DNA of 48,342 nt. It comes from Candidatus Woesearchaeota archaeon (GTDB lineage: Archaea > Nanobdellota > Nanobdellia > Woesearchaeales > ARS49). Below the pieces are notes generated by a model, which worked only from the letters and a program-made list of their open reading frames with translations, was not told the DNA's origin and ran no database searches. The stretch spans positions 1 to 48,342 of the forward strand of contig WJJT01000008.1 in NCBI GenBank assembly GCA_014729555.1. The letters run 5' to 3'. This document shows, one piece after another, positions 17,020 through 42,901 of the stretch (positions are counted from its first letter, which is position 1; each line of letters starts with the position of its first letter). Position numbers and translations under genes: made by a program.

Positions 17020-17996
17020 AGCTTTGAAGCAAGATTAGCTGCCCCAAGCAAAGCAACATCCTCATTCATCACAACATAAACAGGAATATTCTTAAGCAAA
17101 GACTTCATCTTGGACTTATCCTCAAAAGACTTCTTGAAAACAGAAGACTTTAATTTTTTGGCAAGAAGCTTAGACATGCTGCCAACCAAGAAAACACCAC
17201 CACCTGCCTTTGCAGTCAGGGCAAGATTACCTGCCTCAGAGCCATAGAAAGAAGTAAACATGTCAACAGCCTTTTTACAGGCAGCATCCGTGCCCTTAAG
17301 AGCCTCATCAGCAATAACAAGATATGGCGCTTTCTTTTTTAGCAATTTCTTAACCCTGCCAGACTCCTTTACATGACCTGCCCTAGTCAAGAACTGATAA
17401 ATATTATACAGGCCTTTCTTGGAAACAACAGTCTCAATATCAGCACGGCCGGTCTTGCGCTTGATGAACTTCTTCAACTCCCACTCCAGCTCATTCCTTG
17501 CAGCAAAATCAACATGACCACCCTCAGAAGGAAGCACAAAATCATCATGACCGAGCCAGGCAATAATCGCCTCACCAAGACCAGTGCTTGCCCCAAGAAC
17601 AGCTTTCCTGCTGAGCTTCACAGGCTTGCCTGGCTTAACCTGCTTTAAGTCAGATTTTTTCAAGACCTCAATGCCAAAAGCAATACCCTCATAATCATTA
17701 ATGACAGTAACCTTCTTAATACCAAACAACTTGTTGATTCTTGCAGCATCAATAGACCAAGGAAGATTAGTCATCTCGCAAACATTATCATGGCAAGGCC
17801 CTGCAGCAGCAAAACAAGCAGCACGCGGCTTTGCCTTTGCAACTGAAAGAAAATTCTTAAGCATAGAATAAAAATCCTTGAACTTAGGAGTGTTATACTC
17901 CTCGCTAGCCAACCTCTTAAAAGTGCCGTTAGAATAATCAAAAACAGCCAATTTTGTCTTTGAACCACCAATTCTTCCAGCCAGTATCAAGCTCAT
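17016..17996 (-). CDS. Glucokinase (bacterial Glk-like, ASKHA)
   Basis: VTVINDYEGIAFGIE, GASTGLGEAIIAW, PSEGGHVDFA motifs. Confidence 0.8.
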   Translation of the reverse strand: MSLILAGRIGGSKTKLAVFDYSNGTFKRLASEEYNTPKFKDFYSMLKNFLSVAKAKPRAACFAAAGPCHDNVCEMTNLPWSIDAARINKLFGIKKVTVINDYEGIAFGIEVLKKSDLKQVKPGKPVKLSRKAVLGASTGLGEAIIAWLGHDDFVLPSEGGHVDFAARNELEWELKKFIKRKTGRADIETVVSKKGLYNIYQFLTRAGHVKESGRVKKLLKKKAPYLVIADEALKGTDAACKKAVDMFTSFYGSEAGNLALTAKAGGGVFLVGSMSKLLAKKLKSSVFKKSFEDKSKMKSLLKNIPVYVVMNEDVALLGAANLASKL

Positions 17997-20827
17997 CCTT
18001 TCACCACCCCTATTGGAACCAATCTAGCAACCTTATTGCCAATGCCCAAGGCAGTTGACACCCTAATAACTTCATCTATGTCCTTATAAACCTTGTGACA
18101 TTCCTCTGCCAAGCCTTTCTTAGAGCCAGCCTTAACCTTAATATCCAGCTCCTCAAGATGCCTCTGAACCTCCTGGCCCCTATAATGCTTCAGGGCATAA
18201 GAACGAGAAGCAACACGACCAGCACCATGAGCAGTAGAACCCCATGAGATTTCCTCTGCCTTCCTGGTTCCCACAAGCAAATAAGAAGCAGTACCCATAG
18301 AGCCAGGAATCATAACAGGCTGGCCAATCTTCCTGTAAACCTCCGGAACCTCTGACCTGTCAGGCCCAAAAGATCTTGTAGCGCCCTTTCTGTGAACACA
18401 AACATCCTTGCTCTCACCATCAACAGCGTGCTTCTCAAACTTAGCAATATTATGACAAACATCATAAACCATATTCATGCCAGAACAATCACCCATGACC
18501 TTGGCAAAAACATCACGCGTCCAATGCGTAATCATCTGGCGGTTGGCAAAAGCAAAATTAATAGCACAAGCCATTGCGGCGACATACTTCTGGCCCAAAT
18601 CAGAATGAATAGGAGCATTAATCAACTCCCTGTCAGGCAGGCCTTCACAACCATACTTGTTCTCCATCAACTTAATATAATCAGAAGCAACCTGGTGGCC
18701 AAAACCACGAGAACCACAATGAATCATAACAGTAACCTGGCCCTCCTTGTCAATACCAAAAGCCTTTGCAATCTCAGGCTCATAAATCTTATCAACCTTT
18801 TGAAGCTCCAAAAAATGATTGCCTGCACCAAGAGTACCAAGCTGGGAAAGACCCCGAGAAATAGCCTTTGTAGAGCAATGAGAAGGATCTGCACTCTTCA
18901 TAAAACCATTCTCCTCTGTCCTGTCCAAATCATCCTTAACACCATAACCATTCTTTAAAGCCCAGGAAGAACCAGTATTCAAAACCTCATCAAACTCATC
19001 TCTTGAGAGCTTAAGCAAGCCACCCCTGCCAACACCAGCAGGAATCTCCTTAAACAGCATATCCAATAATTCCTGACGCTTCTTGTCAACATCCTCAGCA
19101 GTCCAGTCAGTTCTCAATAGTCTAACACCGCAGTTGGAAACAATAAAGGAATTAGCAAAAAAATTATGATTATCCCTTACATTAAAATCATAAACCTCTT
19201 CCTTTCCGCAATGTGTGATTGCCTGAACTTTGTCAAAAATGGCCCCAAAATCAGCATATTCTTCCAGTTTTTGATCTTTAAAATCCTTAAAAGAAATAAA
19301 ATCTAGAGAAAGCCTCTGCCCTGCATTCTCATAATAATGCCTTTCAATAAACCTTTCATTTATTACTCCTGAAAATGCTTTCTTGACTTCAGATATGCCA
19401 AAACCTATTTTACGATATTGCTTTATCTTTTCAGCCAGTTCTTGTCTTGTAATATTTTCCTGCTTTTTCAGTAAAATATAAAGAACCGCGATATTTGCCA
19501 GCCTGCTTCGCCAAGTATTGTATTCAAAACCAACAGACCGCCACAACCTAACAAGATTACTCTCTTCTGCAGACAAGATTAATCTAAATCTTTTGGTTTT
19601 TTCACCATACTGATTGATAAATTCATCCCTCTCGCTTATCTTATTAACTACAACTCCAAAATCTTCAAGCATTCTGCTTATTTCCAGCATAAACGATTTA
19701 GCACCTGAACTTAAAGATGAAATCTTATTTTGCGAAAGCACAGGAGAATAAAAGCCGGTTTTAGTGTGCGTAGCAGGAGCACTCAATTCAGCACCAAAAA
19801 AAGCAGCAAGAAACATCCTCTTAATACATTTATGACCTTTTTTAATCCAGTCAGGAACAGAATAATCCTGCCTAGTCTTATTTCCTGCAGGAACACCAAG
19901 CTCTTTTAAAATATCCACAAATTCCCTTGTTTTAACATGCAATTCAAAAGTGGTTGATGCAAACTCCTTGTTACCATACTGCGTTAGTATATTATGTTCT
20001 CTTGTCCTGGAATGAATCTGAGACCTGAAACCCAACTGAGAAATGTCTTCTTGTATCTGCAGCAAGTCCTCTTTTTTGCCGTAAAAAACCGCATAGCCTT
20101 TTTTGTCAGAAAAATACATGCAACCATCTCCGAAAAGGTAACCCACAATTTTTGCAAGTATTAAGCTCTTTTCTGACACGCTTTGTCTTGGGACCCCTTC
20201 AAAAAGATTCACACCAACTTCCTGTCCGAAAAGAGACTCCACAGCAGCCATGCCTTCTTTAGTCAAAAACGGATGATCCTTTGTTGCCTTGATAGTTAAC
20301 CCGGACTCTAATCTTACCTCAAAAACATCATCAATCTTCTTTTTCATAAATGCCGATGCAGGTTTAATCTCAATTTGCTTTGTCTTTAAATTCAATGTCT
20401 TAAGACGCGCATTCAACTTTTTCATAACAACATTATCTACAATAACTTCTTCATCCAGACAAAACTCCTCAAACTCACTGATTTGCTTATAGCAGCCAAA
20501 TTCATCAAGTATCTTAGAATCACCGGTTAAGCAATTGATATCATAACCAACCCCTCCAGGGCTGATGATTCCTTCGTCCATGTCAAAAGCAGCAACACCA
20601 CCAATAGGAAAACCATAACCCTGATGAGCATCAGGCATAACATAAGAAGCCTTTTGAATGCCTTTCAAACAGGCAACATTCTGCGCCTGCAACAAAGTCT
20701 TATCCTCTTTAATCTTTTTAATCAGAGCCTCAGAAGCATAAACAAAAGCAGGAACCCGCATCTTGCCAGACTTAGGAATCTCCCAAACAAACTCCTCCTT
20801 TTTCTTAATATCTATTTCTTCCCCCAT
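17993..20827 (-). CDS. rtcB: RNA 3'-terminal phosphate ligase RtcB containing an intein
   Basis: Exteins: YVMPDAHQGYGFPIGGVAAFDMDEGIISPGGVGYDIN / CGVRLLRTDW...GAGNHFLELQ...HCGSRGFGHQV...; start at MGEEIDIK preferred over the upstream ORF-track Met. Confidence 0.95.
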   Translation of the reverse strand: MGEEIDIKKKEEFVWEIPKSGKMRVPAFVYASEALIKKIKEDKTLLQAQNVACLKGIQKASYVMPDAHQGYGFPIGGVAAFDMDEGIISPGGVGYDINCLTGDSKILDEFGCYKQISEFEEFCLDEEVIVDNVVMKKLNARLKTLNLKTKQIEIKPASAFMKKKIDDVFEVRLESGLTIKATKDHPFLTKEGMAAVESLFGQEVGVNLFEGVPRQSVSEKSLILAKIVGYLFGDGCMYFSDKKGYAVFYGKKEDLLQIQEDISQLGFRSQIHSRTREHNILTQYGNKEFASTTFELHVKTREFVDILKELGVPAGNKTRQDYSVPDWIKKGHKCIKRMFLAAFFGAELSAPATHTKTGFYSPVLSQNKISSLSSGAKSFMLEISRMLEDFGVVVNKISERDEFINQYGEKTKRFRLILSAEESNLVRLWRSVGFEYNTWRSRLANIAVLYILLKKQENITRQELAEKIKQYRKIGFGISEVKKAFSGVINERFIERHYYENAGQRLSLDFISFKDFKDQKLEEYADFGAIFDKVQAITHCGKEEVYDFNVRDNHNFFANSFIVSNCGVRLLRTDWTAEDVDKKRQELLDMLFKEIPAGVGRGGLLKLSRDEFDEVLNTGSSWALKNGYGVKDDLDRTEENGFMKSADPSHCSTKAISRGLSQLGTLGAGNHFLELQKVDKIYEPEIAKAFGIDKEGQVTVMIHCGSRGFGHQVASDYIKLMENKYGCEGLPDRELINAPIHSDLGQKYVAAMACAINFAFANRQMITHWTRDVFAKVMGDCSGMNMVYDVCHNIAKFEKHAVDGESKDVCVHRKGATRSFGPDRSEVPEVYRKIGQPVMIPGSMGTASYLLVGTRKAEEISWGSTAHGAGRVASRSYALKHYRGQEVQRHLEELDIKVKAGSKKGLAEECHKVYKDIDEVIRVSTALGIGNKVARLVPIGVVKG
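19133..20533 (-). mobile_element. RtcB intein (467 aa) with LAGLIDADG-like endonuclease domain
   Basis: Begins CLTGDSKIL after ...GGVGYDIN, ends ...NHNFFANSFIVSN before CGVRLL; internal KIVGYLFGDGCMYF and FLAAFFGAELS. Confidence 0.93.
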
Positions 20828-40413: not shown

Positions 40414-40467
40414 ACTTTAAAAACACAACACAACTAATTCTTTAAATGCACTCGTAGCTCAGCTTGG

Positions 40468-40511
40468 ATACTGCAAAATTCGGAGAATTTTGCCGGATTT
40501 GCGTAGAGCAA
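40468..40511 (+). other. BHB intron in tRNA-Arg D-loop (44 nt, 19/20)
   Basis: GCUU-GG^A ... GAGC-AA^A, inner helix UAC/GUA, internal perfect hairpin GCAAAATTC-GGA-GAATTTTGC. Confidence 0.82.
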
Positions 40512-40530
40512 ATAGAGCACTTGCCTCCTA

Positions 40531-40544
40531 ATTCTAAAGGAGCC
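40531..40544 (+). other. BHB intron in tRNA-Arg anticodon loop (14 nt, 37/38)
   Basis: CUCC-UA^A ... GGAG-CC^A. Confidence 0.85.
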
Positions 40545-40641
40545 AGCAAGGGGTCGGGGGTTCGAATCCCCTCGAGTGCGTTAGCAACAGGAGGCTGAGA
40601 GAAAGCTCTGCTTTCGACCATGTCTCTGGGTGCGTCTAAAA

Positions 40642-41577
40642 ATGTACAGGATAAAAGAAAAAACAGAAGATTTCATTGTCAAAGAAATAAGCACAATAAA
40701 GCCAAAAGAAAAAGGAAAATACACCTATTTCTTGCTAAAGAAAAAAAACTACAACACAATAAGAGCACTAGAGCATGCAGCGAATGCATTGCATATTAAT
40801 CCTAAAAAATTCGGCTTTGCAGGAAATAAAGACAAAATAGCAATAACAGAACAAGTGTGCTCTGTGCCAGAAGTCAACAAAGACAGGCTAGAGAAAATAA
40901 AACTAAGAGACATTGAACTAAAGTTCTTGGGAAAAGGAAATGAGCCAATAAGCCTGGGAGACCTGGAAGGAAATGAATTTGAGATTATTGTTCGAAACAT
41001 TGACAAAAAACCAGCGGCAAAAAAAGAATTTGTGAATTATTTTGGAGAGCAAAGGTTTGGAAAGATAAATGTGCCAATAGGAAAAGCAATAGTCAAGAAA
41101 GACTTTGAAAAAGCAGTCAAGCTGATGCTTTCTAACAAAGGGCCTGAAGAAGTAAAGGTAAGGGATTATAACCATAAAAATCCAACAAATTATGTCGGAG
41201 CACTAAAAACACTTCCTTTGAAATTGTTGAAGATATACATTCATGCTTACCAAAGCTGGATATGGAACAAAGTAGTTGAAAAAACAGGAAAAAAAGGCAC
41301 GCTGCCACTAGTCGGATTTGGAACAATAGTGGATAATTCTGTACTCGCTGATTTCTTGGCAGAAGAAGGAATCAGGCCAAGAGACTTCATAATCAAGGAA
41401 ATACCAGAACTAAGCTCAGAAGGAGATGAAAGAGAGATAATTGCAGAAGCAAAAGACCTGAAAATAGGGCCTCTTGAAGAAGACGAGATAAACAAAGGCA
41501 AGAAAAAAAATTTGGTAAAGTTTACATTACCAAAAGGAAGCTATGCAACTGTTTTTATCAACCAGCTATTCACCTAA
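40642..41577 (+). CDS. truD: tRNA pseudouridine synthase D
   Basis: KTEDFIVKEIS, FGFAGNKDKIAITEQ, NYFGEQRFG motifs. Confidence 0.92.
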   Translation: MYRIKEKTEDFIVKEISTIKPKEKGKYTYFLLKKKNYNTIRALEHAANALHINPKKFGFAGNKDKIAITEQVCSVPEVNKDRLEKIKLRDIELKFLGKGNEPISLGDLEGNEFEIIVRNIDKKPAAKKEFVNYFGEQRFGKINVPIGKAIVKKDFEKAVKLMLSNKGPEEVKVRDYNHKNPTNYVGALKTLPLKLLKIYIHAYQSWIWNKVVEKTGKKGTLPLVGFGTIVDNSVLADFLAEEGIRPRDFIIKEIPELSSEGDEREIIAEAKDLKIGPLEEDEINKGKKKNLVKFTLPKGSYATVFINQLFT

Positions 41578-42638: not shown

Positions 42639-42814
42639 ATGATGTCACCAAACAAAGCACAAACAAACGCATATTTAAAGTTTTGTTTTTTGAGGAGAAA
42701 GAAAGAAAGCCCTGTTTCCCAAACCCATACAAAAAAAGGGTAAAGCCAAGGGGCAGTGCCTAAAATCAAAGATTTTGGCTGGTTCTCATACACCTTTCTC
42801 ATTGACGTTCGAAA

Positions 42815-42901
42815 GCCTCCGAAGGGAGTTGCACCCTTGATCTTCTGATTGCTTGCAATTTTGCTACAAGTCAGACGCTTTAGCTACTAAGCTACGGAGG
42901 C
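42815..42901 (-). tRNA. tRNA-Thr(TGT) with a 15-nt intron (42850..42864)
   Basis: GCCTCCG/CGGAGGC acceptor; TCTGA-CTTGTA^A-TCAGA; BHB CUUG-UA^G ... CAAG-CA^A. Confidence 0.92.

Follow-up and report, generated by a model that had tools for sequence, protein, structure and literature searches.

The tRNA-Arg(CCU) gene studied here is interrupted by 44 nucleotides within its D-loop, which raises the question of whether these nucleotides are an intron, a retained part of the mature tRNA or the trace of a dead gene copy. The gene is located on the forward strand, at positions 40448-40580 of the window, that is, the whole stretch of 48,342 nucleotides that was analyzed and that makes up contig 48 of the host assembly (1.04 Mb, 58 contigs, 89% complete). 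The host belongs to the Woesearchaeota (DPANN). Downstream of the gene lies its neighbor, encoding a TruD-like tRNA pseudouridine synthase (40642-41577, forward strand), and the named genomes from which the closest TruD proteins come are Candidatus Woesearchaeota bins. The gene spans 133 nt and reads GCACTCG TA GCTC A GCTT GG (44 nt) ATA GAGC A CTTGC CTCCTA (14 nt), followed by the 3′ exon A GCAAG GGGTC GGGGG TTCGAAT CCCCT CGAGTGC G. Its exons were positioned by script at 40448-40467, 40512-40530 and 40545-40580. The D-loop insertion (40468-40511) is placed between G19 and A20, which is sequence-equivalent to 20/20a, and a 14-nt intron (40531-40544) occupies the canonical position 37/38. Both insertions had been proposed in a previous sequence-only reading and are correct to the base, the span 40468-40544 given there running from the start of the first intron to the end of the second. 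All seven acceptor pairs are formed, and direct reading shows that the invariant bases T8, A14, G15 with C48, G18, G19, A21, T33 and the T-loop TTCGAAT are present.

When the raw window is searched, the gene is missed both by ARAGORN and by Rfam cmscan at the gathering score. ARAGORN finds no tRNA as long as the 44-nt D insert is left in. With only this insert removed, the program recognizes the tRNA and assigns it an intron of 14 nt, and the doubly spliced 75-mer is called as tRNA-Arg(cct) of 75 bases, the normal product that had been predicted upon removal of both introns. A sub-threshold Rfam match (40517-40580, 27 bits) was rejected as a false start at an exon stretch, GCACTTG, that resembles GCACTCG of the acceptor strand. 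A group I intron was also rejected, as an insert of 44 nt falls well below the size of such introns and no models other than those for tRNA and mascRNA match at E<=1. Elsewhere in the window, the only tRNA that reaches the Rfam gathering score is a tRNA-Ala(UGC) (42814-42901, reverse strand), whose intron of 15 nt lies at position 37/38 or close to it. A tRNA-like match below the threshold (L028, 8249-8322, reverse strand, 16 bits) may correspond to a CAT-anticodon tRNA with long insertions.

Judged from its sequence, the D-loop insertion can adopt the BHB geometry, with a 4-bp central helix, two 3-nt bulges and predicted cuts after the second bulge base. The 5′ strand of the outer helix is the D stem (40457-40460), which pairs with 40515-40518. 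In the central helix, GCUU at exon positions 15-17a (40462-40465) pairs with GAGC in the intron (40506-40509), 4/4 pairs being formed. The 5′ bulge is GG^A (40466-40468, predicted cut after G19), the 3′ bulge is AA^A (40510-40512, predicted cut before A20), and UAC (40469-40471) and GUA (40503-40505) form an inner helix of 3 bp. The grammar GCUU-GG^A...GAGC-AA^A described earlier for this locus is hence the one read in the DNA. For the 37/38 intron, the central helix is CUCC (40525-40528) with GGAG (40539-40542), and the bulges are UA^A and CC^A.

We consider it very probable that this is a single-copy tRNA-Arg(CCU) gene with two BHB introns, spliced by EndA and RtcB. Upon transcription, the precursor would fold by pairing the D-loop exon bases with intron 1, UAC/GUA closing inside, and the bulges of this motif would be offered to the archaeal splicing endonuclease EndA; CUCC/GGAG and its bulges would present the 37/38 intron in the same way. 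In the presumed order of events, EndA would cut the four sites and RtcB would then join the exons, the product being a normal 75-nt tRNA that reads AGG.

Orthologues were collected across the order with a tRNA-Arg(CCU) pattern, in a census that covers loci. About 50 of the 75 parsed rows show a normal D-arm, most same-family members included; in same-family genomes the same tRNA appears without insert (GCTCAGCTTGGATAGAGC). A D-loop insertion is found in 17 rows, the window gene counted, and 14 of these 17 share one grammar: exon positions 15-17a pair with four bases of the intron, after which comes AA^A (AC^A in one case), and GG^N stands at the 5′ side. D-region insertions that fit this grammar poorly (L099, L115 and L141) were left out of the statistics. 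The pattern search gave the window gene as the only tRNA-Arg(CCU) match in the host genome. A second, anticodon-blind pattern retrieved further D-loop introns, mostly in tRNA-Lys(UUU). The tRNA-Lys(UUU) of the host itself (L257, G000:C14:10638-10680) contains a 26-nt D-loop intron of the same design, with an inner helix of 8 bp, together with a short 37/38 intron. At three other loci of the census, L116 (G097), L127 (G056) and L209, tRNA-Arg(CCU) introns are located in the anticodon stem and not in the D-loop.

Covariation of the two helices was evaluated by a shuffle test in which partners are swapped among sequences. For the 14 tRNA-Arg D-loop introns, analyzed with a fixed splice point, the central helix forms 55/56 pairs, a value that shuffles do reach (P=0.001), and the inner 4-bp helix forms 50/56 pairs versus 32.7 expected, which was attained by 0 of 20000 shuffles. 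Over all 34 introns, which are related and not strictly independent though many share no detectable intron sequence, the inner helix forms 142/170 pairs versus 78.6 in shuffles, never reached in 20000. The corresponding central helix value, 130/136 pairs, likewise matched by 0 of 20000 shuffles, is slightly biased upward, since for this set the 3′ splice point was whichever of three candidates gave the best central pairing; no such optimisation was applied to the inner-helix score, and the fixed-point test with 14 introns agrees with that performed with 34. All three UAC/GUA pairs of the inner helix form in 12 of 15 homologous introns. A strict hBHBh′ form would call for a stable inner helix; that of the window gene, with just 3 bp, is a point against the BHB reading, and many homologues have a longer one. 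The inserts range from 18 to 65 nt and their sequence varies freely, only the BHB pairs and the splice-site bases being kept. Comparative evidence favors reading the D-loop insertion as a BHB intron: its presence or absence in orthologues and the covariation of both helices support this, as do the unrelated sequences found at the same site and the second example in the genome.

The two tandem inverted repeats that had been noticed within the D-loop insertion are both exact. Hairpin 1, GCAAAATTC-GGA-GAATTTTGC (40473-40493, arms at 40473-40481 and 40485-40493), is a perfect 9-bp stem located entirely within the intron; it forms part of the unconstrained MFE structure and fits inside the intron loop. 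Hairpin 2, ATTTGC-GTAGA-GCAAAT (40497-40513, arms at 40497-40502 and 40508-40513, two exon bases included), is an alternative structure that lies over the 3′ splice site and does not belong to the splicing grammar. As it uses bases of the GAGC strand, hairpin 2 and the BHB central helix are mutually exclusive. Were the insertion retained, the mature tRNA would have an extended D-arm made of these two hairpins, and precursor folding is consistent with such a structure: the cloverleaf with two hairpins (-49.0 kcal/mol) is slightly better than the cloverleaf with the BHB (-48.5 kcal/mol), the unconstrained minimum being -52.0 kcal/mol. In the thermodynamic fold the BHB central helix has a probability of 0.04, and the precursor does not favor the BHB. 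Several relatives also score low in BHB fold energy; energy folding therefore neither supports nor excludes the BHB, and we rejected it as proof because of this ambiguous outcome. A perfect hairpin 2 occurs in 6 of the 15 homologous introns, and only in these does its stem reach at least 6 bp. Against retention, most orthologues have no insert, and the freedom of length and sequence spares just the BHB pairs and splice-site bases. Moreover, in genes with U at exon position 16, the intron strand mostly changes to GGAC, matching exon GUCU, by which the BHB is saved and hairpin 2 is destroyed. Retention of the insertion appears very unlikely on this evidence. As hairpin 2 is lost or poor in homologues in which the BHB pairs stay, the conserved structure is the BHB; hairpin 2 was rejected as a functional part or processing signal, since it is unsupported across homologues and competes with the BHB.

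A bistable intron would be an addition to splicing of two BHB introns rather than an exclusive alternative. Hairpin 2 would mask the 3′ splice site, a change of fold brought about by hairpin 1 or by a protein would expose it, and splicing could thereby be regulated. Such a role is in line with the exact hairpin 2 (6-8 bp) found in the host genome and in G033, G069, G177, G355 and G041, the last of them showing a C-G to T-A double change. We nevertheless regard it as unlikely, taking into account that hairpin 2 is broken in G148 despite being intact in its congener G177, that it is poor in G065, G079, G099 and G109, all of which retain the BHB, and that these copies share ancestry, so that their likeness needs no selection. 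The fragmented and incomplete assembly, together with the failure of the tools to detect the gene, would also fit a pseudogene, with a repeat inserted into a dead tRNA copy, or an artefact of assembly. This we hold to be extremely improbable: splicing leaves every stem and the usual invariant bases in place, the genome offers no other match to the pattern for this tRNA, and homologous introns exist in independent genomes of other families.

Comparison of syntenic loci bears on the history of the intron. G007, which belongs to the same family and has the closest TruD, shows the gene order of the window (glycosyltransferase, tRNA-Arg(CCU), TruD), and linkage of the tRNA to TruD recurs in many relatives within the order. 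In the tRNA-Arg(CCU) of G007, the same D-loop site holds an intron of 34 nt and position 37/38 one of 12 nt, the latter with the same CUCC/GGAG helix; the sequence of its D-loop intron is unrelated to that of the window gene (z=0.01). The window intron resembles those of G033 (z=7.0), G069 (z=6.3), G079, G065, G099 and G148, all of them from other families. In a wider search, this sequence type was found in 14 of 359 genomes, and most of these introns begin their inner helix with UAC/GUA. Two histories would account for this distribution: loss or replacement of an ancient intron on many occasions, or lateral spread of introns from one tRNA gene to another. Introns being present, absent or replaced at one syntenic locus, their gain and loss can be tested.

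The splicing enzymes predicted to act on this precursor are encoded by the host. A single EndA of 177 aa (L001:1255-1788) contains both family domains, PF01974 and PF02778. The EndA family is present in 72/72 high-quality genomes of the order, with one hit in nearly all of the 99 positive genomes. The PDB entries nearest to the host protein are Methanopyrus EndA, the Nanoarchaeum alpha subunit (3iey chain A) and the M. jannaschii homotetramer, with E=1.8e-34 for 1a79 and 4.5e-35 for 3iey chain A. The host protein is like the alpha4 type (Methanocaldococcus, 1a79) and the Nanoarchaeum alpha subunit; unlike in Nanoarchaeum, a search with PF01974 at E<=10 gave no second EndA or beta subunit gene in the host, whose genome is 89% complete and in which a very divergent beta, of the kind known in Crenarchaeota, could escape. 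The crenarchaeal specificity loop is missing as well: when aligned with 3p1z chain B and 2cv8, the host EndA has a gap where the enzymes of A. pernix and S. tokodaii have the loop inserted. In A. pernix EndA we take VEKPRGADF, near the N-terminal domain, to be this Crenarchaea-specific loop. Judging by the lone alpha gene, the architecture of the enzyme would be of the alpha4 type.

The host genome contains several 14-16-nt 37/38 introns and non-canonical introns. Reviews report that relaxed-BHB introns are removed efficiently only by (alpha-beta)2 and epsilon2 EndA (PMC6379350), and that non-canonical introns accompany enzymes of these two types (PMC4090602, PMC4033280). A lone alpha EndA gene is therefore hard to square with the introns found in the host. 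We tentatively suggest, as a possibility of somewhat less than even standing, that a plain alpha4-type EndA with neither beta subunit nor specificity loop removes both the many non-canonical and the short relaxed 37/38 introns of these Woesearchaeota. If this is so, the accepted rule of co-evolution between enzyme architecture and intron diversity would be contradicted, and the single plain EndA gene makes that supposed co-evolution directly testable with purified protein. The likely exon ligase for this tRNA is RtcB, of the tRNA-splicing ligase family, which is encoded in the window itself (17996-20689, reverse strand; two PF01139 matches, E=2.7e-143 and 1.1e-20, within a single open frame of 977 aa). 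About 1.27 kb of in-frame sequence separates the match to PF01139 positions 1-50 from that to positions 49-426, and this insert is probably an intein.

Non-canonical BHB tRNA introns are known from Crenarchaeota (Thermoproteales), Nanoarchaeum and others, at positions such as 20/21, 22/23, 25/26 and 59/60 (PMC4090602). D-loop BHB introns are already established as a kind, and the window gene is a well-supported further member. It shares with the known examples a location other than 37/38, often in a gene that has a 37/38 intron as well, the 4-bp central helix and the two 3-nt bulges; it differs from them in the recurrent 19/20 site, in the tRNAs affected, tRNA-Arg(CCU) and tRNA-Lys(UUU), and in the host order, which belongs to the Woesearchaeota. 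The 14-nt intron of the gene resembles canonical archaeal 37/38 introns in position, but it is very short and has almost no inner helix, a relaxed, loop-closed form. Neither the recurrent 19/20 site in this order nor its pairing with a single alpha-type EndA is described in the literature searched, outside which most subscription journals lie. The order in which this D-loop site recurs is one of the DPANN known mainly from metagenomes. Standard tRNA finders can overlook tRNAs with D-loop introns, and genomes may therefore appear to lack essential tRNAs.

Other host tRNAs also show unusual insertions. Several of them (L018, L022, L023, L024, L025 and L027, apparently including His, Phe and Val) seem to have introns of some 20-95 nt in the T-loop, immediately downstream of TTCRA(A), and a tRNA-Arg of the host (L015) shows an apparent intron in the T-stem.
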